The position numbers and the translations under genes were made by a program. Below the pieces are notes generated by a model. The model saw only the letters and a list, made by a program, of their open reading frames with translations. It searched no databases and was not told the origin of the DNA. A DNA stretch of 64,000 nt from Castellaniella denitrificans. Lineage in GTDB: Bacteria > Pseudomonadota > Gammaproteobacteria > Burkholderiales > Burkholderiaceae_B. The stretch is taken from NCBI RefSeq assembly GCF_027214045.1, contig NZ_JAPWHE010000001.1:186001-250000 (forward strand). Reading direction: 5' to 3'. Shown one piece after another: positions 26,055 to 61,895 of the stretch (its first letter is position 1; every line of letters starts with the position of its first letter).

Positions 26055-27178
26055 GACACTATCCCCATGCCCTGCAACATCTCGGCGTTCACTCGCCGCA
26101 CATCGTAGCGCTCTTCAGCAATCCGGCGAGAGTGGGCGCCCATTTCCCGCGCCAAAGCCGGTTCCTCCAGAAAGCGCCGCATGGCATCCGCCAGCCCATC
26201 ACTGGATCCGACTGGCACCAGATAGCCATTCACACCATCGACGACCGTCTCCCGGCACCCAGGCGCATCCGTCGTCACCACCGCTCGTCCGATCGCCATG
26301 GCTTCCAGCACCGTGCGCGGCGTTCCCTCTCGGTACGAAGGCAGCACATACACGCAACAATCCTGCAGCGCCGGCCGCACATCGGCTAACCGCCCCAAAT
26401 ATTCCACACTGCCTTCCTGTATCCACGCCTGCAACTCCTCGACGCCAATCGAGTCCGGTCCGTCATCGATCCAGCCCGCCAAACGAAACGCAGCGTCTGG
26501 GAATTCGCGATGCAACCGGCTTGCCGCCTGGGCGTACTCACGCACCCCCTTGGCTCCCAACAGCCGTGCAATCATCAGGAATCTCACGCTTCCATCCGGC
26601 ATCGGGGCCTTTTCAAAATGCCGGACATCGACGCCGGAGCCATTGACCACCACAGAGGGCACCCGAGCGCCCAGCAGCCCATTGGAGCGGAACAAGGCCT
26701 GATCATCCGGATTCTGAAAAAAAACGCGATCCGCCGCAAAAAGCGCCAAACGATAGAGACCTCGCGCCAAGCCGGTCACCAGACGAGCCTTGAACCCCTC
26801 CGGCCGAGCCTGAAAGGCGTAACCCAGGCCAGTGATCAACGCGTAGCGCCTGCCCACTCCGGCAAGCCGGGCAGCCAGCAAGCCATAAACGACGGGTTTG
26901 ATCGTATACCCCAGAAACACATCCGGACGCAGGCGGTGCATCAGACGCCATAAGCCATACAGCGCCACAAGATCCGCCACCGGATTCATGCCGGTGCGGC
27001 GCAAAGCAATATCGTGCGGAACCGCACCGCGGGCCAGCAAGGCTTGCCGACATTCACCCTGGCTCAGCCCTGGAGCGGCCACATGGACTTCGACCCCAGC
27101 CCGCAACAAATCGTCGATCAACGCCCCTCGAAAATTCAGCAAGGATTCCGCAAATCCGCCAACCAGCAACAGCCTCAT
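26051..27178 (-). CDS. Glycosyltransferase family 4 (second-sugar transferase, PglA-like)
   Basis: 375-residue GT-B protein: LLLVGGFAESLLNFRGALID at the N-terminus, VNGSGVDVRHF in the middle and YVLPSYREGTPRTVLEAMAI as the nucleotide-binding C-terminal motif with the EX7E-type Glu pair. It probably adds the second residue to the lipid-linked sugar, as its gene directly precedes the initiating transferase in the same order as in pgl and wlb loci. ATGA overlaps on both sides fix the ends. Confidence 0.9.
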   Translation of the reverse strand: MRLLLVGGFAESLLNFRGALIDDLLRAGVEVHVAAPGLSQGECRQALLARGAVPHDIALRRTGMNPVADLVALYGLWRLMHRLRPDVFLGYTIKPVVYGLLAARLAGVGRRYALITGLGYAFQARPEGFKARLVTGLARGLYRLALFAADRVFFQNPDDQALFRSNGLLGARVPSVVVNGSGVDVRHFEKAPMPDGSVRFLMIARLLGAKGVREYAQAASRLHREFPDAAFRLAGWIDDGPDSIGVEELQAWIQEGSVEYLGRLADVRPALQDCCVYVLPSYREGTPRTVLEAMAIGRAVVTTDAPGCRETVVDGVNGYLVPVGSSDGLADAMRRFLEEPALAREMGAHSRRIAEERYDVRRVNAEMLQGMGIVS

Positions 27179-29139
27179 GCGTCCACCCGAGCATCAGCCA
27201 GCCAAGCCTGAAACATCAAAATCGGCCATAGCTGATACTGCCAATTATGGCTGCCCCGCACATGCTGAAGCCAAAGCGTCCGGATCGGCGCGGGATCGAA
27301 GTAGCCGTCCGCCCGCAGCCGGTCCTCGGCCAGCAGGCTATCCGCCCAACTCCGCAAAGGCCCCCGCAGCCAATCGTCAATCGGAATGCCAAAACCCTTC
27401 TTGGGGCGCTCGACCAGTTCACGCGGCACATGCCGATACAGCACCTGACGCAGCAGCCACTTCCCCTGCCCGTCCCTGATCTTCATTCGCAACGGCATCC
27501 GCCAAGCCAGTTCCACCACCCGATGATCCAGCAAGGGGGCGCGTGTCTCCAGACTGGCCGCCATCGCAGCCCGATCCACCTTCGCCATCACCTCGTCGGG
27601 CAAGAATGTCTGCGCATCCATCGCCATCATCCAATGCTCGAAACAATCGGCCTGCGGCTGTATGGCCGGGCTCGTCATCAGCGTCGGATGCTCTTCTCCT
27701 CCAAGAACAATACTGCCAGGGTCCTGCCAGTGACTGGTCAGGCGGCGGAAATAATCCATCTCTGTATCCAGTTCCAGCACATCCGCCAGTTTCTGCGCTT
27801 TGGTGCCCGGAATCGCCAGCCTGAATCTTTCGGGCAGCACCGGCTTGGCCAATGCAAACAAGCGATCCCAGCTTGCTGGGGACAGGCTGCGCAGCAACGC
27901 CGCGGACGCATGGCGGACTGGTCCCGGCATGGACTGCAAGCGCAGCCAGACGCGCCGCGCGCCCAGGTACCGGTTATAGCCGCCGAACAGTTCATCCCCG
28001 CCATCGCCGCTCAACGCCACCGTGACGTGCTGACGCGCCAGCTTGCTGATCAGATACAGCGGAATTTGCGAGTCCGCGCTCAGCGGCTCGCAATACATGC
28101 GCGGCAACAGAGGGATAACATTCAAGGCGTCTTCAGGTCGCACGACCAGCGGCATATGGTCGGTACCCAGATGCTCCGCGATAGCCCGGGCATGCGCGGC
28201 CTCATCATATTCGCTGCCGCTGAAGCCGATGGTAAAAGTACGGACCGGCTTGGGGCTGAGTTTCTGCATCAGCGAAACGACGGCAGTGCTGTCGATCCCG
28301 CCGCTGAAAAACGCCCCAACCGGCACGTCAGCCAGCATCTGCCGCCCGATGGTGTCCGAGAGTTGCGATTCCAGGGCATCGATTGCCGCCATCTCATCGC
28401 CCGTGAATGGCTGCTCACACCCCTGGGCAACGGTCTCATTGAAACGCCAGAATGGCTGCGGCACAGCCGCCTTGGCTGCGAACACCCCCTGCCCCAAGGG
28501 GATCTCGATGAACTGGCCCGGAGGCAACTTGAGCACGCCTTGGAAGATCGACCACGGCGTCGGTACATAGCCATGCCGCAAATACAGCGCCAGCGACCCT
28601 CTGTCCACCGTCGGCCGGAAATCCGGATGAGCCCGCAAGGCTTTCAATTCGGATCCGAACAGCAGCATGTCGCCCTGCCAGCCCCAATACAGGGGTTTTT
28701 CCCCCAAGCGATCGCGCGCCAGGCTGAGCACCTGGCTCTGGCGATCCCATAAGGCCAGCGCGAACATGCCGACGGTCCGCTCCAGGGCGCGCTTCAGCCC
28801 CCAGGCCTGAATGCACGCCAGGAGGGTTTCAGTATCCGAGTGCCCGCGCCACTCCTGCCCGGCCTCGCCAATCTGAGCCCGCAGGGCCAGATGATTGTAG
28901 ATTTCACCATTGAAAACCAGAACATACCGGCCGCAGGATGAGCACATCGGTTGATGACCCGCTACCGACAACTCCACCACCGCCAGACGGCGGTGGCCCA
29001 ATGCCAACCCAACACCCCGATCAGCCCAAACGCCCCCATCATCGGGGCCGCGATGGACCAGCGCATCGGTCATGCAATGCACATCAGCCGTTAGATTGTT
29101 TGCGTTTTGGGTCTGCCATAGCCCTACTATTCCACACAT
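27175..29139 (-). CDS. AsnB-type glutamine-dependent amidotransferase, copy 1
   Basis: 654 residues. Cys2 of MCGIVGLWQT is the glutaminase nucleophile, RGPDDGG and FNGEIYNH are further glutaminase signatures, and FFSGGIDSTAVVSLMQ near residue 270 is the ATP pyrophosphatase loop. In O-antigen loci such proteins amidate hexuronic acids to uronamides (for example WbpS-type), which fits better here than free asparagine synthesis. A second related copy lies at 34562-36442. It overlaps the glycosyltransferase downstream by four bases. Confidence 0.9.
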   Translation of the reverse strand: MCGIVGLWQTQNANNLTADVHCMTDALVHRGPDDGGVWADRGVGLALGHRRLAVVELSVAGHQPMCSSCGRYVLVFNGEIYNHLALRAQIGEAGQEWRGHSDTETLLACIQAWGLKRALERTVGMFALALWDRQSQVLSLARDRLGEKPLYWGWQGDMLLFGSELKALRAHPDFRPTVDRGSLALYLRHGYVPTPWSIFQGVLKLPPGQFIEIPLGQGVFAAKAAVPQPFWRFNETVAQGCEQPFTGDEMAAIDALESQLSDTIGRQMLADVPVGAFFSGGIDSTAVVSLMQKLSPKPVRTFTIGFSGSEYDEAAHARAIAEHLGTDHMPLVVRPEDALNVIPLLPRMYCEPLSADSQIPLYLISKLARQHVTVALSGDGGDELFGGYNRYLGARRVWLRLQSMPGPVRHASAALLRSLSPASWDRLFALAKPVLPERFRLAIPGTKAQKLADVLELDTEMDYFRRLTSHWQDPGSIVLGGEEHPTLMTSPAIQPQADCFEHWMMAMDAQTFLPDEVMAKVDRAAMAASLETRAPLLDHRVVELAWRMPLRMKIRDGQGKWLLRQVLYRHVPRELVERPKKGFGIPIDDWLRGPLRSWADSLLAEDRLRADGYFDPAPIRTLWLQHVRGSHNWQYQLWPILMFQAWLADARVDA

Positions 29140-31090: not shown

Positions 31091-33454
31091 TTACCGCAGA
31101 GAAACAGAGGTTCTTCTCGATAATGAAAACACTGCTGCCACCCCACCCAGCCCCAGCCAGAAGGTCCGTTGATACAGGACCTCATGGAACAGGCTCATCA
31201 CTGCGAAAACCAACATCAATAACAGCAGCCCATGTGCACGAACCGTATCTAACCGTCGCCGCCCCCAAGCCGAGCGAATGATCAGTACAAATGTGACGAC
31301 AAAAGGCACAGCCCCCACCAACCCCATTTCTGCCATCAGCCACAACAAGGTATTATGGATAATCATTGGCAAGCCCAAACTGCTTGTGCTGTCCTGCAGG
31401 AAAGAACCTAGACCGCCCCCCAGGACTGGATGATGCCACCAGGCATCCACTGCTGCCAACAGCATCTCCATTCGTCCCTGATCGCTAACCCCGGTCGAGA
31501 ATCGGCCTCTACTGAGAGTACCTAGCGTATCTGACACCCCTAGCGTATCTGACACCCCTGGCGTATCTGACACCCCTAGCGCATCTAATTCCCAGAGATT
31601 AATCAGGCTCTGCAGCCCACGCCACAGCATCGGCACTAAACCTGCCAACCACCAAAAGACAGCCCCCACTAGCAGACTTGCCACCACTATCCGCCAACCA
31701 ACAACACGCAGTGCCAATACAGCGCATAACATCACTGCGAACGTGATGAATGCAGACCGGGAAGCCGTCAAAAACAAGCCTCCCATCAAGATTCCAAGTG
31801 CCAGAACATGCAACCAGTCAAATTTCTTCCCTCCCCGATGCGCAGATCGCACCCGCCCGAGCAAAGGAAAATATAAAGCCATAACCACCAAAAGCTGGAA
31901 CGCCAACGCATTCCTATTTCCTGAATATGCCTCAAGCCCTGACGTCTGGATATCCTGCACAAATCCCGGCACATCAAACCAGCGCATGGGCGCCAGGACG
32001 ACTGCGCAAATCACGACAGCGCACAACACAGTCACCATAATTTCGACCAGACGCCGAAATCCCAAACGATGGTAATAACGAACCGCCATATATCCTGCTG
32101 CTAGGTAACCCAACAGCACAACCCAACCAATCACTTTACCGATGGCCCACCCCGATACACTGCCCCGTAGCCACCAAGCCCAACCCAAGCCCAACAGAAA
32201 CACTACCCCCATCACCAACAGGCAAGTATTGAAACCCGGCACAGTCCATCGAGGCCACTGCCGCTGGGACAACGCATCCATCACCACTGCGGAAAGCGCC
32301 AGCACAGCGAACGGATCTGCCAGATTCAGATTCACAGTCGTCCCAGAGATCGACACATGAATCTGGAAAAAAATCAGCACCGCCGTCGCCATATACAACA
32401 ACCAGGCAGACACATTTTCCGTGGAAACGGATGCGACACGCCCAACCAAGCCAGAAGGCCCCCCCCCCGTGTTAGGTACACGCCACAGTGTGTCTCGAGC
32501 CCACAAGACCACTACACCTGCCAGCAACAGCACCCCCGCAATCGACAGCAAGCCGACAAAAATCGAAGCTGACAAGGCCACATCCGCTGCCACACCTGCC
32601 AGCCCCAAAACATAAACTGCGGCAACCTCGCGTAGCCCCCAGCCACCAAAACTGACTGGAATGCTAGCGCCGAACGAGACAATGGCCGCCATAGCAAACA
32701 GTTCCAGCCACCCCACGCTCGGCGCTACGACATGGAACAGCAGCGCAAAGCATGAAAGCATGGCCCCCAAGCTTGCTGCCGTCACGAGCAACAATTCCAG
32801 AATGCGGCCAGCATTACGCCACGCGAACACCGCTGCCAAATGCTGGCGCTCAAATGTGCGCCACCCCAAGCGTCGATTCAAAAGCCACGCCACGCCCAGA
32901 ACCAACAGGATTTCGATAAAAGGAATATTTGCCATCTGACCAAACACCCCCTGCCCCAACAGGTAGCCCCCTCCACACACAGCCATGGCCGCACTGACAA
33001 ACGCAACTAATATCCGCTCATAGGCCACGATCATGGCATTTTCGACAGGAGACACCCCGGCATGCCGCAGCACAGCTTGGCGGCCGATCATATGCCCCAT
33101 CAGTGGAATGACCACCAACGCGGCGAGATTACCCAAGATGCTCGCCCGAAAAATCGGCTCCCAAGGGATCTCGAATCCGAAGTGGCTCAGAATACGTCGA
33201 TAACGATGCACAACAGTCAACTGATTGACAATGATGAGCACAAGCGCCCCTGCCAGAATATCAAGCGGGAACCTGCTCATATCCGCCAGCAGATTTTCTG
33301 GCCTGACCACAAAGAAAATCCCAGCCAACAAGAGCGCAGACAATAAGAAACTCACATAGCGACGCAAAACCGCACCTTTCAAATCCAAAAAATGAATCAA
33401 ATCAACCTTGATCACTATCAGAACAACCGACCAAGGAATGAAAATAGCGCTCAT
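31091..33454 (-). CDS. Fusion of LPG-synthase-type membrane domain and O-antigen ligase/polymerase
   Basis: 787 residues, nearly all membrane. Residues up to about 325 form a UPF0104/lysylphosphatidylglycerol-synthase-type helical domain (LTVVHRYRRILSHFG, GASIPVSFGGWGLREVAAVY). After a junction TGGG encoded by ten consecutive G (32459-32468), the rest is a Wzy_C ligase/polymerase with GRMEMLLAAVDAWWHHPVLG, GGLGSF and IIHNTLLWLMAEMGLVG. A stand-alone ligase of 433 residues could start at ATG 32392. A loop near residue 630 carries an 18-base repeat (GVSDTL units). The start is uncertain: ATG 33454 overlaps the upstream gene by 53 bases, while TTG codons near 33396 would start just before the first helix. 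Confidence 0.75.
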   Translation of the reverse strand: MSAIFIPWSVVLIVIKVDLIHFLDLKGAVLRRYVSFLLSALLLAGIFFVVRPENLLADMSRFPLDILAGALVLIIVNQLTVVHRYRRILSHFGFEIPWEPIFRASILGNLAALVVIPLMGHMIGRQAVLRHAGVSPVENAMIVAYERILVAFVSAAMAVCGGGYLLGQGVFGQMANIPFIEILLVLGVAWLLNRRLGWRTFERQHLAAVFAWRNAGRILELLLVTAASLGAMLSCFALLFHVVAPSVGWLELFAMAAIVSFGASIPVSFGGWGLREVAAVYVLGLAGVAADVALSASIFVGLLSIAGVLLLAGVVVLWARDTLWRVPNTGGGPSGLVGRVASVSTENVSAWLLYMATAVLIFFQIHVSISGTTVNLNLADPFAVLALSAVVMDALSQRQWPRWTVPGFNTCLLVMGVVFLLGLGWAWWLRGSVSGWAIGKVIGWVVLLGYLAAGYMAVRYYHRLGFRRLVEIMVTVLCAVVICAVVLAPMRWFDVPGFVQDIQTSGLEAYSGNRNALAFQLLVVMALYFPLLGRVRSAHRGGKKFDWLHVLALGILMGGLFLTASRSAFITFAVMLCAVLALRVVGWRIVVASLLVGAVFWWLAGLVPMLWRGLQSLINLWELDALGVSDTPGVSDTLGVSDTLGTLSRGRFSTGVSDQGRMEMLLAAVDAWWHHPVLGGGLGSFLQDSTSSLGLPMIIHNTLLWLMAEMGLVGAVPFVVTFVLIIRSAWGRRRLDTVRAHGLLLLMLVFAVMSLFHEVLYQRTFWLGLGGVAAVFSLSRRTSVSLR
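31521..31592. repeat. 18-bp in-frame tandem repeat (about 3.5 units)
   Basis: CCTAGCGTATCTGACACC occurs at 31521-31538 and 31539-31556, with one change at 31557-31574 and a diverged fourth unit at 31575-31592. Read leftward each unit encodes GVSDT plus Leu or Pro. It lies in the predicted large periplasmic loop of the ligase/polymerase domain, so unit gain or loss changes loop length by six residues without a frameshift. Confidence 0.9.
32459..32468. repeat. Homopolymer C10 (G10 on coding strand)
   Basis: Ten consecutive C on the plus strand at the junction between the two domains of the fusion gene. With ten G the two domains are in one frame. With nine, the reading frame stops after about 25 further codons, leaving only the first domain. 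Tracts of this length are prone to slipped-strand mispairing, as in Bordetella bvgS and fim promoters. Confidence 0.9.
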
Positions 33455-34565
33455 ACTGACGCACAACGCCCTGCATATCGAATCGTGCAACAACGCTACA
33501 CCGCGCAGCCCGCCCCAAATCCTGACGTCCCTGCCGGTCCAAATTCAGCAACTCCAGGACCGCCGCAGCCAAGGATGCAGGATCTCCTGGCGGCACGATA
33601 CGCCCCGCAACCCCTACGATATCAGCACAATCCCCTACATCAGTGGATACACAGGGTATCCCGCACGCCATCGCTTCCCCCATCACATTCGGGAAAGCCT
33701 CAGCCCGTGACGCCAGACACGCAATATCAAAAACATTATTCAGATCGGCAATATCCGTTCGCTCACCCATCAGCAAAACGGCATTATTCAAATCAAGCTC
33801 CTCGATCCAAGCCGCAAGCTGCCTGTTGCGTCCCGTCACCCCCGTTCCAACCAGCAAGAATTTCACCTGTGGCAAAGTTCGACGCACAATCGCTGCCGCC
33901 TGCAGAAAATCATGATGCCCCTTCATCGGATGGAACCGCGCCACCATGCCCACGACAGGCGCCCCCCCCAGTTCGAGCTCAGCTCTCAACGCTGCCCCCC
34001 GTTCCGGACGGGGCATATAGGCATCCAGATCGAACCCGTTCGGAATCACCCGCATATTATGACCCCGAAAACCAAAATCGCCATGTGTCTTCAAGCTGAA
34101 CCGGCTATTAAACAGACATCCCTGCATCCTGCCTGACAGCCAAGCATTCATGCGCATGACCCAGCGGGTATTAAAGCGTTCACGCGCAAGCCCATAAAAA
34201 CTTTGCCGGATGCCAAAACTCAAAGGCGTCTTGCTGCCAGCCAGCCAGCGGCCGGCCCAGGCCACTACATTCCCGTGATACATCCACCCCTGAATCAGTA
34301 CAAAGCGATGACGACGAATCAGTTGCGCCAGTACGAAGGGAGCAGCTACGATCCGATGCCAGCGATCCATGCGCAGGCAAACGACAGGCACACCAAGCTC
34401 CTCGATCCTCCTACCCACCGTACCACCATCCAGCAGAGAAACCACCATCGGAGCGAACTGCCGTCGATCCAGCCGCTGCAAAATCTTGAGCAGCATTTGC
34501 TCCGCCCCACCGGTCCCGAGGGTCGTAGTCACGAACAGGATAGGCTTTGACATCCGTCCGATCAT
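33402..34565 (-). CDS. Glycosyltransferase family 4
   Basis: 387 residues of GT-B type: FVTTTLGTGGAEQMLLKIL near residue 10, VIPNGFDLDAYMP as the inter-domain hinge, VGMVARFHPMKGH and ACLASRAEAFPNVMGEAMAC as the donor-binding region with EX7E. It transfers an unidentified sugar during repeat-unit assembly. ATG 34565 overlaps the second AsnB stop as ATGA; an open frame up to 34649 is ignored. A run of eight G on the coding strand (33962-33969) lies inside the gene. Confidence 0.88.
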   Translation of the reverse strand: MIGRMSKPILFVTTTLGTGGAEQMLLKILQRLDRRQFAPMVVSLLDGGTVGRRIEELGVPVVCLRMDRWHRIVAAPFVLAQLIRRHRFVLIQGWMYHGNVVAWAGRWLAGSKTPLSFGIRQSFYGLARERFNTRWVMRMNAWLSGRMQGCLFNSRFSLKTHGDFGFRGHNMRVIPNGFDLDAYMPRPERGAALRAELELGGAPVVGMVARFHPMKGHHDFLQAAAIVRRTLPQVKFLLVGTGVTGRNRQLAAWIEELDLNNAVLLMGERTDIADLNNVFDIACLASRAEAFPNVMGEAMACGIPCVSTDVGDCADIVGVAGRIVPPGDPASLAAAVLELLNLDRQGRQDLGRAARCSVVARFDMQGVVRQYERYFHSLVGCSDSDQG

Positions 34566-36442
34566 TGATCCGCTAACCACGCTTGAAATATCAAGATGCT
34601 CCATAACCGGTTGGACCGATCCGCCCGTCCGTTGAGGTGTTCCTGCCATATTTCTTGGATTCTTTTCGCATCGAAATAACCTTCTTTCCTTAACTTGGGC
34701 TCTTGCAACAGATCTTCAGCCCACTCACGCAGCGGACCACGCAGCCAACTACCCAGCGGCACCGCAAAACCGGCCTTTGGACGATCCACCAGAGACTGCG
34801 GCACATAGCGATATAGCAACTGCCGCAACACCCACTTCCCCCGACCGTCCCGGATTTTCATCGAAAGCGGCAATCGTGCGGCAAACTCGACCACACGATG
34901 ATCCAGCAGCGGCACACGCGTTTCCAGACTATTGGCCATCGCTGCTCGGTCAACCTTGACCAGGATGTCATCGGGCATGTAGCCGCAGGCATCCAGGGAC
35001 ATCATCCAGACCTCGAACGACTTCACAAAACGCCACGTATCAGGATGACGCAGCAAGGAATCCGGCTCGTTCGCACCCAGAATCATCGATTCCGTATCCA
35101 TCCAATGGCTACGCACGCGAAGATATAAATCTTCCCGGCTGGTGGCACCCAGGATCGTCAATAGCTTTTCAATTCGCTGAGGCGCTGGTAACGGCACCAG
35201 CATGGCCGCAATGCCCTGGCGCAACGGCGCAGGAATCATCCGAAGCCAGCGCCAGAGCCTGGGCATGAACTGATACGGTGTATATCCTCCGAACAATTCA
35301 TCGCCCCCATCCCCACTGAGCGCCACCGTTACATGTTGGCGCGCCATCCGGCTGACGAGGAAAGTGGGAATCTGAGAGCTGTCCGCAAAAGGCTCGCAGT
35401 AAATACGGGGCAACTCCGGAACGATCGCCAGAGCGTCCTGCTCCGTGACATATAGTTCCGCATGATCCGTGCCCAGGTGATCCGCTACGGCGCGAGCATG
35501 CACCGCTTCGTCGAAATCCCTGGCCTGAAACCCGATTGCATATGTGTTCACCCGCTGCGAAGCCTGCCGCTGCATCAGCGACACAACCAGACTACTGTCG
35601 ATCCCGCCACTCAGGAATGCCCCCAAGGGGACGTCCGCCACTCGCTGCCCCTGGATGCTCGTCATCAACCGCGCCTCCAGCTCATCGATGGCCTGCCCAT
35701 CGGTTCCAGTGAACGGGGTTTCCAATCCAGCCCGCACGACATTGCGGTAATCCCAGAATGGCCTGGGCATGGCATCCCGATCCCCTACGCCAATGACGAC
35801 ATAATGTCCAGCCGGCAGTTTTCGGATACCGCGATAGATACTATACGGTGCGGGAATATAGTTGTATCGCAACAGCAGGGTCAACGCATCACGGTCGATC
35901 ATTCCCTGAAAATCAGGATGCGCCCGCAATGCTTTCAACTCGGAACCAAACAACAAGGTCTGGCCTTGCCATCCCCAGTACAGTGGCTTTTCCCCCATGC
36001 GGTCCCTGGCCAGAGTCAAGGTGCGGTCCTGCCGATCCCATAAGGCAAAAGCGAACATGCCGACACACGCCTGCAAAGTCCGATCAAGGCCCCATCGCGC
36101 AAGACAAGTCAGCAAGACTTCGGTATCGGAATGGCCCCGCCAGGTATTGCCCTGCTCTTCTTGCTCTAAGCGACTCCGTAACTCTCTATGGTTATATATT
36201 TCGCCATTGAATGCCAGAATGTAGCGGCCACAATGCGATGCCATAGGTTGATGACCGGCCAGAGAAAGATCGGAAATGGAAAGACGCCTATGCGTCACTC
36301 CGAAACCCACCGCGTCATCGTGCCAGATTCCATCACTATCGGGACCACGAAGCGCTATGGACAAACCCTGCTTACGTAAAATTTCGGCTGAATCATCCGC
36401 AGCACGTCGGAAAGGTCCGAAAAACCCGGCAAGTCCGCACAT
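34562..36442 (-). CDS. AsnB-type glutamine-dependent amidotransferase, copy 2
   Basis: 626 residues with MCGLAGFFG (Cys2 nucleophile), RGPDSDGIW, FNGEIYNHREL and the PP-loop FLSGGIDSSLVVSLMQ. It resembles copy 1 (27175-29139) along its whole length but is well diverged, so the duplication is old or the genes arrived separately. It probably amidates a second uronic acid or a different position. GGAGAG precedes the ATG. Copy 1 and copy 2 are separated by the acyltransferase, the fusion gene and a glycosyltransferase. Confidence 0.9.
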   Translation of the reverse strand: MCGLAGFFGPFRRAADDSAEILRKQGLSIALRGPDSDGIWHDDAVGFGVTHRRLSISDLSLAGHQPMASHCGRYILAFNGEIYNHRELRSRLEQEEQGNTWRGHSDTEVLLTCLARWGLDRTLQACVGMFAFALWDRQDRTLTLARDRMGEKPLYWGWQGQTLLFGSELKALRAHPDFQGMIDRDALTLLLRYNYIPAPYSIYRGIRKLPAGHYVVIGVGDRDAMPRPFWDYRNVVRAGLETPFTGTDGQAIDELEARLMTSIQGQRVADVPLGAFLSGGIDSSLVVSLMQRQASQRVNTYAIGFQARDFDEAVHARAVADHLGTDHAELYVTEQDALAIVPELPRIYCEPFADSSQIPTFLVSRMARQHVTVALSGDGGDELFGGYTPYQFMPRLWRWLRMIPAPLRQGIAAMLVPLPAPQRIEKLLTILGATSREDLYLRVRSHWMDTESMILGANEPDSLLRHPDTWRFVKSFEVWMMSLDACGYMPDDILVKVDRAAMANSLETRVPLLDHRVVEFAARLPLSMKIRDGRGKWVLRQLLYRYVPQSLVDRPKAGFAVPLGSWLRGPLREWAEDLLQEPKLRKEGYFDAKRIQEIWQEHLNGRADRSNRLWSILIFQAWLADQ

Positions 36443-48925: not shown

Positions 48926-49687
48926 TTAATGCGGTTCCGACAAGACTGAAACATCCTTCAGAATCATCTGACATTTATTTTCCATCGAAGCACGAATAAG
49001 GTCATTTTCAAATATTGCTTTATAGAGCAGTTCATGACACTCCCATCGAATATGATAACCATCATCCTGGAGTAAGGATGGGTTTGATTTTGTCATGTTG
49101 TACAAATCAACAACAGCATGCGCCGAATTTGAAAAAACCTGATCAATGATACTATTGTATCTGGATACGGCCTCGCCAACACCAAAAGTCCGTTCTGACA
49201 GGCCCGGTCCGGGATGCGGAATATTGATTGCAATCACTTTGCAGCCAATACCACTCATTAGATTACGAAACTGCATCATATTGCTCTCGAATTCGGACGG
49301 CCCAACGAAAGAGATCTGTTTTTTTTTAGTGAAATATAACCTTCTCTTTGACTTAAAGGAGATATAGAATCTCGCTAAGCGACGGAGGCCTTGGATTCTA
49401 GAAAGAACCCACAGAATACGGCGTTCGTATTTCGACATCAAGCGCGGCAGACAATCCACAACTCCTACCTGCAATACCACCACATCGGGAAGCAAGGGCA
49501 AAACATACTCTTCCTGATAAATTTCAGATATTATCTGCCTTGATGTATTGGCACGCACAGATCCGTTGATCACGAGCCAGTTCTTGAGATTACACGCAAG
49601 CAATGTCGAATACATCTGTTCATAAACAACCCCCTCGCGATGACGTGACATCGAGAGGGAGTCACCCACAATCAATAATTTTTTCAC
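48926..49687 (-). CDS. SGNH/GDSL-type hydrolase-like protein
   Basis: 253 residues. LLIVGDSLSMSRHREGVVYE at the start has the GDSL nucleophile, VVVLQVGVVDCLP resembles block III (Asn replaced by Asp), and DDGYHIRWECHELLY gives the Asp-x-x-His end block. It has no signal peptide and is likely a sugar esterase or acyltransferase for the polysaccharide. The start is a GTG at 49687 that overlaps the flippase stop as GTGA. A run of nine A on the coding strand (49319-49327) lies mid-gene. Confidence 0.75.
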   Translation of the reverse strand: MKKLLIVGDSLSMSRHREGVVYEQMYSTLLACNLKNWLVINGSVRANTSRQIISEIYQEEYVLPLLPDVVVLQVGVVDCLPRLMSKYERRILWVLSRIQGLRRLARFYISFKSKRRLYFTKKKQISFVGPSEFESNMMQFRNLMSGIGCKVIAINIPHPGPGLSERTFGVGEAVSRYNSIIDQVFSNSAHAVVDLYNMTKSNPSLLQDDGYHIRWECHELLYKAIFENDLIRASMENKCQMILKDVSVLSEPH

Positions 49688-50946
49688 GAAAAAGGCCTCA
49701 GCCACGGCATTGGGAACACATGATTGGCCGAAATCCAGCAAAATATGAATGCCAAGATTTTTCCAATCAGCATCCCTACAGCCACACCCACCAGACCAAA
49801 ATCCTGACACAAGATAAAAGAAAGGAGTAATCCGATCCCACCACTCACGAATGTATTGATCGCCAGCAGTTCATTCCGGTTCTGGATATGCATGAATATA
49901 GCTGTTGAGTAATAACACGCACCAAAGAATGCGCTGACTGCAAATACCAGGGCTATCCATATTCCTGCAGAAAATCTTTCCCCTACCAACCAAGGATAGA
50001 CCAGCCAGATAAGCAGACAGTAAATGCTCAGGGCAAGAAACGCGCCACTCATGACTTTATAAACTGACAAAACCAACAGCTTCCGATTTTTCACTTCATC
50101 TTTTGTGACGCTCTTTGTTATTGCTGGATGCCATGATCTGAAAAATGCTTCATACGCCATATGGAGCCCCATGCCAACCTGCATGGCGGCCATATAGATT
50201 CCCGTATCGGCCAGTCCAAGATTTTCCTTGACTATGAATCTATCGCCCGCAATCAACAGCCAGCCGCCAATTGCATGGGGAATCAAAGGCAACCCGAAAC
50301 GCAATGCATCCTTGCCATGCTCCCTCCATGCGTGCGGCTTCACGAACAGTTCGTCCCGGGACATCCATAAAATGACGACGAGCCCGAGCAAGCCTACCGA
50401 TAGCGCATGCCCAAGCAACCTGCCCTGCCAAGCCATTCCAGCGATCAAAACCAGCCATAAAGAGGCTATCGCATTGATAGAACTTTGGGAAACCTGAAGA
50501 ACCCCAAATTTCTTCGCCTTTCCTTCTACCTGCAGAAGCGTAAGCTTGATATTGACAACGAACTGAACCCCCGCAACGACCACAGCCACAATTAGCCAGC
50601 CAACTGGAACACCTGTGGTGTAAGCCATCCAGTCACCCGCCAGGATGACCGCAGTAATTGCCACGAAGGTAGTAAACACCAACATGATTGTGATCGTACT
50701 AATGTACTCTGCAAGTTGAGCACGGCCTAACTGGAAGTAGCGTATGCTAATGACTCCATTCATGCTCAAACCTACCACAGCACTAAAAATGCTGAGCATT
50801 ACCAGGAACATCGACACTACGCCATAGTCTGACGGCGATAGAACCCGTGTCAAAATCGGAAGCAGAATAAAGGGAATAGCCGCATTAAAAACATTAGCAA
50901 CCAGATATATAAGCGCATTACCTAAAACCTGGTTTTTAATATGCAC
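49684..50946 (-). CDS. Wzx-type oligosaccharide flippase
   Basis: 420 residues with about 12 hydrophobic helices; NALIYLVANVFNAAIPFILL then ILTRVLSPSDYGVVSMFLVM is the Wzx/RfbX N-terminus. It moves undecaprenyl-linked units across the inner membrane. The start is the GTG at 50946, with GGAGG four bases ahead; an upstream ATG frame lacks a site. It belongs to the AT-richer cassette, and a decayed flippase remnant lies at 54589-55070. Confidence 0.9.
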   Translation of the reverse strand: MHIKNQVLGNALIYLVANVFNAAIPFILLPILTRVLSPSDYGVVSMFLVMLSIFSAVVGLSMNGVISIRYFQLGRAQLAEYISTITIMLVFTTFVAITAVILAGDWMAYTTGVPVGWLIVAVVVAGVQFVVNIKLTLLQVEGKAKKFGVLQVSQSSINAIASLWLVLIAGMAWQGRLLGHALSVGLLGLVVILWMSRDELFVKPHAWREHGKDALRFGLPLIPHAIGGWLLIAGDRFIVKENLGLADTGIYMAAMQVGMGLHMAYEAFFRSWHPAITKSVTKDEVKNRKLLVLSVYKVMSGAFLALSIYCLLIWLVYPWLVGERFSAGIWIALVFAVSAFFGACYYSTAIFMHIQNRNELLAINTFVSGGIGLLLSFILCQDFGLVGVAVGMLIGKILAFIFCWISANHVFPMPWLRPFS

Positions 50947-50985
50947 ACCGCCTCCTCGAAAATTCACGCAGAGGCAAACCATCAG

Positions 50986-60605: not shown

Positions 60606-61895
60606 ATGCCCCCAACCCCGGCTGCTCCCCCCGCCTGGCTGTCGACCTGGATGTCGGCCAGTGCCGCGCTGTCCTTCCTGCTGATGCTGTCGGTGCCCTC
60701 GGGCTATTCCGTGGGCGGCGGCCTGCTGCTGCTGGGCGGCCTGGGGGTCTGGTGGACGGGACGACAAGCTTCCCGGTCGATGGCGCCGGACGCCGCGCCC
60801 TGGACAGCCGAGGACCGCACGCTGTGCGCGCTGCTGCTGGCCGTGTTCGCCATCAACGCGCTGGCCGTGCTGTGGCACGGGGACTCCGGCAAATACCTGG
60901 ACCAGGGCGCCCGTTACCTGCTGGCCGTGCCCATCCTGGCGGGACTGCGGCGCGTGCGGCTGCGCCTGGACTGGCTGGCGCTGGGACTGGCGCTGGGGCT
61001 GTTCGCCACGGCGGGGGTCGCCGCGTGGCAGACCCAGGGGCAGGTATATGGCCGCGCCTCGGGCTTTGTGACCAGCGCCATCCCGTTCGGCGACATGTCC
61101 CTGACAATGGGGTTCTGGTCCTTGATGGGCGCCGCCCTGGCGGCGATCCGGCGGCGCTGGTGCGGGGCCGCGCTGCTGCTGGCCGGGTCGCTGGCGGGGA
61201 TCTACGCCATGATCGCCTCCGCCTCGCGCGGCAGCCTGGTGGCGTTGCCGATCCTGCTGGTGCTGGCGGCGGTCGCGCTGCTGCGCCGTACGCATCTGCG
61301 CCCCTTGCTGGCGGGCGTGGCCATCCTGGCGGCGGCCGCGGCGATCGCGCTGTCCGTCCTGCCCGCCGGCCACATCGCCGAAAGCCGCTACGGCGCCGCG
61401 CTGGACGAATGGCACGCCTACAGCCAGCGGGGCGATGCCACGAACAATGTCGGTTCCCGCCTGGAGGCCTGGAAGGCCGCGCTGATCAGTATCCCGGAAC
61501 GCCCCCTGCTGGGCTGGGGGCACGCGCAGTACGATGCCCATCTGCGGGAACTGATCGGCGCCGGGCGCGTGGCGCCCATCGTGGGTACGCTGGCGAACAC
61601 GCACAACCAGTTCATCGAGATCTGGCTGCACCAGGGCAGCCTGGGACTGATCGCGTGCCTGGCGCTGCTGATCGCCAGTTTCTGGTATTTCTGCCGCCGC
61701 CTGCGCGCGCCCGAACCGGCGGTGCGGGTGCTGGCCTGTTGCGGGGCGGCGTTGCCGGCCGCCTTCGCCGCCTACGGCCTGACCCAGGTGATCCTGGGCC
61801 GCAACAACGGGGTGATGTTCTTCCTGGTATCCCTGGCGGTGCTGTGGGCCGCGCTGCGGCAGGCGGAACGGGATGCGGCGCAGGCCGCCGCCTGA
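60606..61895 (+). CDS. O-antigen ligase family protein (WaaL-like)
   Basis: 429 residues with about 11 hydrophobic segments. The Wzy_C motif is present: VGSRLEAWKAALISIPERPL, LGWGHAQYD and ANTHNQFIEIWLHQGSLGL. It joins O-antigen to lipid A core in the periplasm. With the LPG/ligase fusion at 31091-33454 as candidate polymerase, this one is a good candidate for the ligase. ATG 60606 is in frame with the first helix; a nearby ATG at 60599 is out of frame. It converges with the RfaH-like gene. Confidence 0.88.
   Translation: MPPTPAAPPAWLSTWMSASAALSFLLMLSVPSGYSVGGGLLLLGGLGVWWTGRQASRSMAPDAAPWTAEDRTLCALLLAVFAINALAVLWHGDSGKYLDQGARYLLAVPILAGLRRVRLRLDWLALGLALGLFATAGVAAWQTQGQVYGRASGFVTSAIPFGDMSLTMGFWSLMGAALAAIRRRWCGAALLLAGSLAGIYAMIASASRGSLVALPILLVLAAVALLRRTHLRPLLAGVAILAAAAAIALSVLPAGHIAESRYGAALDEWHAYSQRGDATNNVGSRLEAWKAALISIPERPLLGWGHAQYDAHLRELIGAGRVAPIVGTLANTHNQFIEIWLHQGSLGLIACLALLIASFWYFCRRLRAPEPAVRVLACCGAALPAAFAAYGLTQVILGRNNGVMFFLVSLAVLWAALRQAERDAAQAAA

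Follow-up and report, generated by a model that had tools for sequence, protein, structure and literature searches.

A conserved fusion of an MprF-like transport domain with a WaaL/Wzy-type membrane enzyme in Castellaniella denitrificans, and the G10 tract in its linker

Introduction

Is a run of ten G at the join of a two-domain membrane protein a genetic switch, and what would the protein do for the cell? The question is raised by a window of 64,000 nucleotides of Castellaniella denitrificans (positions 186,001-250,000 of its contig; "the window" here means this whole stretch), taken from a 3.10-Mb genome in 50 contigs. In one of its genes (31091..33454, minus strand) an LPG_synthase_TM (UPF0104) domain of the MprF/PplT type is joined to a Wzy_C domain of the WaaL/Wzy type, as assigned by Pfam, alignment and Foldseek. 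A sequence-only reading had taken the ten G for a switch between fused and split forms, or for an ON/OFF switch, of a key ligase, and had known of no described example of such a fusion. We arrive at another answer. The product is best explained as a single chain of a scramblase-type and a Wzy-type domain, likely a polymerase, and the G10 as a drifted glycine linker that is probably no fusion switch. We give this reading a probability of roughly 0.72.

The Fused Gene and Its Locus

Read from its ATG, the gene encodes 787 amino acids. The choice of this start codon is uncertain, as the homologues start only around residue 30. In an 800-aa form starting at a TTG, residues 50-324 match LPG_synthase_TM with 55.4 bits (cut-off 33.4) and residues 565-731 of the same chain match Wzy_C with 51.9 bits (cut-off 31.7). 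The protein also contains the H-N-x9-G motif (HNTLLWLMAEMGLVG), which is typical of ligases and polymerases.

Most of the surrounding locus is encoded on the minus strand. It comprises glycosyltransferases, two asparagine-synthase-like genes, sugar-nucleotide and NeuB-type enzymes, a Bac_transf initiating transferase and a Wzx-type flippase (Polysacc_synt in Pfam; 49684..50982, minus). By this gene content it is a predicted Wzx/Wzy-type surface-polysaccharide locus. Upstream, a gene for a group 1 glycosyltransferase (33402..34649, minus; Pfam) overlaps the start of the fused gene; a C8 run, G8 on the coding strand, lies within it at 33962-33969. The asparagine-synthase-like genes, likewise recognised by Pfam, are found one gene off on either side of the fusion, an amidotransferase upstream (34562..36442, minus) and the second one downstream (27175..29139, minus). 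Both resemble the amidotransferases of XrtA/PEP-CTERM systems with scores under the model's cut-off. The neighbourhood is a recurrent one: Asn_synthase genes are also next to or near the fusion in the genomes G005, G286, G1179 and G158, adjoining it at the loci L071, L112 and L204 and standing one gene off at L176.

Predicted Structure

AlphaFold2 modelled the fused protein from an eight-row alignment with a pLDDT of 71.5 and a pTM of 0.79; this model superseded an earlier one from four rows (pLDDT 49.3). When it was compared with the PDB by Foldseek, WaaL (7tpg) ranked first with E 1.5e-4, prob 1.00 and a TM-score of 0.53 by WaaL's length. Four MprF entries, including 9j8s, 7duw and 9goe, came next (E 4.4e-3 to 3.1e-2, prob 1.00, TM-score 0.22-0.27). 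The TM-scores of these fold matches are low, and an E below 0.001 was reached by the WaaL match alone. A sequence-profile search of the PDB yielded no match with E up to 1.

In the model, the tract region (residues 323-344; 32423..32488, minus) has a pLDDT below 50 and forms a disordered linker; in the alignment, the sequence and the length of this interdomain linker vary among homologues. A repeat scan revealed an 18-bp in-frame tandem repeat of 3.7 copies (31521..31586, minus; GVSDT[LP]), which falls into a loop modelled with low confidence in the Wzy_C half (residues 622-657). The loop is predicted to be disordered, and the repeat is absent from the aligned homologues.

Fused Homologues Elsewhere

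One open frame with both domains was found in six genomes: that of the window (G000), G005, G158, G286, G771 and G1179. All six proteins exceed both Pfam cut-offs. By the tool's labels they span five genera and four families, the other five coming from a second Castellaniella (G005), another genus of the family and three other families. Within the genus, protein and profile searches detected the fusion in two of ten genomes, G000 and G005. The family search, with full-length matches in 3 of 268 genomes, added G158. Of 399 genomes sampled from the order, 57 matched, 55 of them over one domain only; the two with a full-length match are G000 and G286. The class sample yielded G771 (with G000, 2 of 369) besides the split form of G814, and G1179 was found among 391 relatives of G814. 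There was no further fusion among 121 relatives of G286, and a match in G1028 is a stand-alone LPG_synthase_TM gene. The other five fused proteins are 67, 43, 33, 30 and 37% identical to that of the window. Conservation in five other genomes rules out that the fusion is a chance read-through or an assembly error.

The tract itself is another matter. Comparing its length across related genomes had been suggested as a check of the switch, and here it gave the idea no support: in all five fused proteins of other genomes, the join is free of a G run. Nor is the tract a conserved element; elsewhere in the gene there is G8 at codon 398 in G005, G7 at codon 611 in G158 and G6 at codon 244 in G286; the longest G/C run is 6 in G1179 and 4 in G771. 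Because five other genomes keep the single frame without a G run at the join, the fusion is independent of the tract. A run of 7-8 T, encoding a conserved Phe-Phe-Gln, comes after the join in four of the six fused genes.

Another natural fusion of polysaccharide-assembly steps was met in the same genus. In G008 and G006 a single frame joins Wzy_C to a Bac_transf initiating sugar transferase (loci L155:1-2562 (-) and L156:919-3507 (+)).

The Split Form in G814

In G814 the two domains are encoded by separate genes of 298 and 435 codons. Stop and start overlap in GTGA, and both products are above the Pfam cut-offs. The split protein is sister to the fused one of G1179 (99/94), inside the 100/100 group of the six fused proteins, which is an unrooted group. 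Since it nests within the fused group, fission is the simplest reading, and by the sequences the split probably arose from a fused ancestor. A G7 near the join was considered as a fusion switch and rejected: an in-frame TAA directly precedes the GTG of the second gene, so slippage in the G7 cannot fuse the two genes, whatever its length. The claim that a tract makes or breaks the fusion is thus unsupported on two counts, the five other fused homologues without a G run at the join and a split that is independent of its G7.

A longer tract of G814 deserves mention in its own right. A G14 (L170:3566-3579; G814:C1, minus) is located at codon 25 of the stand-alone LPG_synthase_TM gene. It is the only G run of at least 9 in this 3.7-Mb genome; in the five homologue genomes searched (without G1179), such runs number 13, 4, 5, 1 and 1. 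The chance expectation of such a tract in the homologue genes, of about 2.3 kb each, is about 0.02 by a hand estimate. Synonymous shuffles of the G814 gene reach G14 in 3.4%, which is a mild control, as four glycines are the tract itself. The G14 is suggestive, short of proof, and together with the split form it hints that this family may make use of tracts and of splitting; the gene that harbours it is a candidate phase-variable scramblase gene.

Polymerase or Ligase?

The Wzy_C proteins were compared in a tree of 28 sequences, composed of 22 of the 24 matches of the ten genus genomes (two fragmentary ones of G009 were omitted) and six further proteins; G007c24 and the stand-alone row of G158 have long branches. 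The six fused proteins cluster with the split one (100/100), and this cluster is distinct from a stand-alone WaaL-like group. The window also encodes a stand-alone Wzy_C protein of about 429 aa (60606..61895, plus; start picked by eye), 28 kb from the fused gene. By Pfam and tree it is the better candidate for the WaaL ligase, and it groups with one protein each from seven of the nine other genus genomes (support 85/84, or 97/95 when that of G002 is left out). In G158, about 5 kb separate the fusion from a stand-alone Wzy_C gene, whose long-branched product falls in with the WaaL-like group (99/97). With a separate WaaL-like gene in the window that has its counterparts in seven of the nine other genus genomes, the designation of the fused gene as the key ligase could not be upheld. 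The widespread separate WaaL-like gene and the nearby Wzx favour the polymerase, and on these grounds the product of the fused gene would probably be the Wzy of the locus rather than a ligase. A Pfam scan of 35 window frames detected no Wzz.

Alternatively, the fused protein might act as the ligase, perhaps as an additional one that serves a different acceptor. We hold this to be the less probable alternative, if one to be taken seriously. Among solved structures, the second half is, after all, matched best by WaaL; both WaaL and Wzy fall into the Wzy_C family, and solved structures of Wzy may be underrepresented in the library. This has to be weighed against the separate Wzy_C protein of the window with its relatives in seven other genus genomes, against the stand-alone gene near the fusion in G158, and against the position of the fused gene among glycosyltransferases, which is the expected place of a polymerase.

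The G10 Tract and the Reading Frame

The tract (32459..32468, minus; C10 on the plus strand) covers codons 329-332, Thr-Gly-Gly-Gly, in the linker. What had been read from the letters was confirmed in two respects: the ten G lie in frame in a 787-residue protein with both Pfam domains above cut-off, and nine G end translation early, the computed product having 359 aa with a stop that begins at 32376. For 8, 11 and 12 G, the computed products are 438, 439 and 360 aa. The tract is thus long enough for a contingency locus and so placed that its length changes the frame.

The restart that had been envisaged for the second domain fared less well. Its ATG (32390..32392, minus; M355) exists and would give a protein of 433 aa, but it falls within a helix predicted for residues 345-360, and the residues aligned to M355 in the five other fused proteins are I, F, L, M and L, i.e., Met in one of five; a designed restart is therefore unsupported. 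The natural split second protein of G814 starts 17 residues before the position that matches ATG 32392. Other in-frame starts are available ahead of this ATG (TTG 32449, GTG 32413, TTG 32401 and TTG 32398), and by eye no purine-rich stretch was seen in the 20 bases upstream of it. A restart there is possible, but not designed-looking.

Is the Tract More than Chance?

Words of eight G were seen 4 times in the window, with 6.89 expected from dinucleotide shuffles. In the whole genome, 86 places start a G/C run of at least 8. Thirty-four of them belong to nine clusters of long mixed G/C runs (G000:C11:383392-383573, others in L004, L033 and L040); five clusters are at contig ends and at least one is beside N, and they look like sequencing or gap-filling artefacts. 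The other 52 are isolated, 42 being of eight, 7 of nine and 3 of ten, and the G10 tract is one of the three that reach ten. For lengths of at least 8, 9 and 10, isolated runs thus amount to 52, 10 and 3 versus 56.9, 12.9 and 2.9 expected in 3.10 Mb from a second-order Markov model, a rough estimate since the model was trained on the window (GC 0.45-0.74, the tract itself included) and applied to the whole genome. With numbers so near expectation, a set of slippery tracts in this genome is unsupported.

The gene level gives a similar picture. A run of at least 10 arises in 11.9% of 4000 synonymous shuffles of the fused gene and in 389 of 2000 shuffles of 28 frames of the locus; 36 of the 77 glycine codons of the fused gene are GGG. 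Neither over-represented (3 versus 2.9 expected) nor conserved in place (0/5 fused homologues), the tract is not clearly beyond chance.

Could the Tract Nevertheless Be a Switch?

A phase-variable contingency gene would work by slippage in the G10, being on with ten G and off with nine or eleven, maybe with the first domain released on its own and translation restarted for the second. We judge this unlikely, although a number of observations point that way. The reading frame does depend on the length of the tract. A stop 16 bases past an upstream start provides a workable geometry for a restart. The homologue in G814 has its G14, unique as a run of at least 9 in 3.7 Mb, and the split in that genome, being probably a fission of a fused ancestor, suggests that separate halves can work. 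Support may further be sought in Bordetella, which we take to belong to the same family as the window organism. There, PMC1891110 reports C/G tracts longer than 8 in excess of chance, and 29 of 30 C/G tracts to be polymorphic among three species; by that standard, ten G in a coding sequence would be long enough to slip. On the other side, the isolated runs of 8, 9 and 10 give no sign of a gene set, the shuffles reach the run as often as stated above, five fused homologues do without a G run at this place, and the restart is not conserved, its ATG cutting into a predicted helix.

A more far-reaching proposal, which we consider quite improbable, would make the pairing of an MprF-like domain with a Wzy/WaaL-type enzyme a recurrent target of poly-G phase variation. 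The Castellaniella linker tract would then switch between tethered and separate or absent halves, and the G14 of G814 would switch the scramblase alone, the polymerase being made from its own GTG. If true, lipid handling would be uncoupled from polymerisation, and by this means the cell would adjust its O-chain assembly.

That the tract is an assembly or sequencing error, the true length being 9 or 11 G and the genes being two separate ones, is hardly credible: the nine artefact-like clusters with their contig ends and N may speak for it, but the tract is 165 kb from the nearest of them on its contig, and it is with ten G that the gene retains the single frame shared by five other genomes.

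The Preferred Explanation

We thus return to the single-chain protein with a drifted linker. One continuous two-domain membrane protein would serve the Wzx/Wzy-type locus. Its N-terminal half, to judge from sequence and model, is probably an MprF-like (PplT) lipid-transport or scramblase domain, and its C-terminal half, of the WaaL/Wzy fold, would most likely be the Wzy polymerase. Near the periplasmic active site, the first half may hold or flip a lipid-linked intermediate, or it may return the used carrier lipid.

The G10 would be a glycine stretch in a freely varying linker, arisen by drift in a GGG-rich gene, and as a fusion switch it is probably purposeless. It may be a mutation-prone spot all the same. 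For Campylobacter, the cut-off is set at 7 or more G/C in PMC6321876, and drift from three consecutive glycines is named as one possible origin of tracts. The G10 case matches this origin, and the tract may well mutate often. A switch by G tract would gain importance only once its length had been demonstrated to vary, and the G14 of G814 is the better first place to look for it.

The value of the system lies elsewhere. Fused and split homologues imply a functional link, which is known as the "Rosetta stone" logic. Six fusions and one split, overlapping pair make a testable case that an MprF-type domain serves a Wzy/WaaL-type enzyme, and the set is a small, conserved system for studying the role of a scramblase domain in O-antigen assembly. 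The LPG_synthase_TM domain of the fused protein presumably belongs to COG0392. For all of COG0392, flippase activity is argued in PMC5898192.

Comparison with Known Systems

Fusions of the PplT/MprF transport domain with O-antigen ligases are mentioned in PMC11980842, which cites bioRxiv 2022.03.11.483950 for them. The sequence-only reading knew of no example; going by this mention, the present fusion belongs to an already described kind. In the part of the Discussion of PMC11980842 that was consulted, a G tract does not come up. Our literature searches returned no fusion of UPF0104 or of lysylphosphatidylglycerol synthase with an O-antigen ligase, and for MprF with O-antigen ligase PMC11980842 only. 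As far as the mention goes, the likeness to those fusions consists in LPG_synthase_TM and Wzy_C in one chain; for its part, the window protein exceeds both Pfam cut-offs and shows fold likeness, with low TM-scores and a pLDDT of 71.5.

The fused gene resembles the poly-G/C phase-variable surface genes of Bordetella, Neisseria and Campylobacter in being a surface-polysaccharide gene with a G tract long enough to slip. It differs in that its tract is known from one genome and is not conserved, and that the isolated runs genome-wide are at chance level. MprF has a similar fold of the N-terminal transport domain (Foldseek prob 1.00, low TM-score). Its C-terminal partner, however, is an aminoacyl-transferase domain, whereas that of the fused protein is a WaaL/Wzy-type membrane enzyme. 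With the O-antigen ligase WaaL and the O-antigen polymerase Wzy, finally, the fused protein has in common the Wzy_C domain of Pfam, the fold match to 7tpg and the H-N-x9-G motif; what sets it apart is the additional scramblase-like domain at its N-terminus and the presence of a stand-alone WaaL-like protein beside it.
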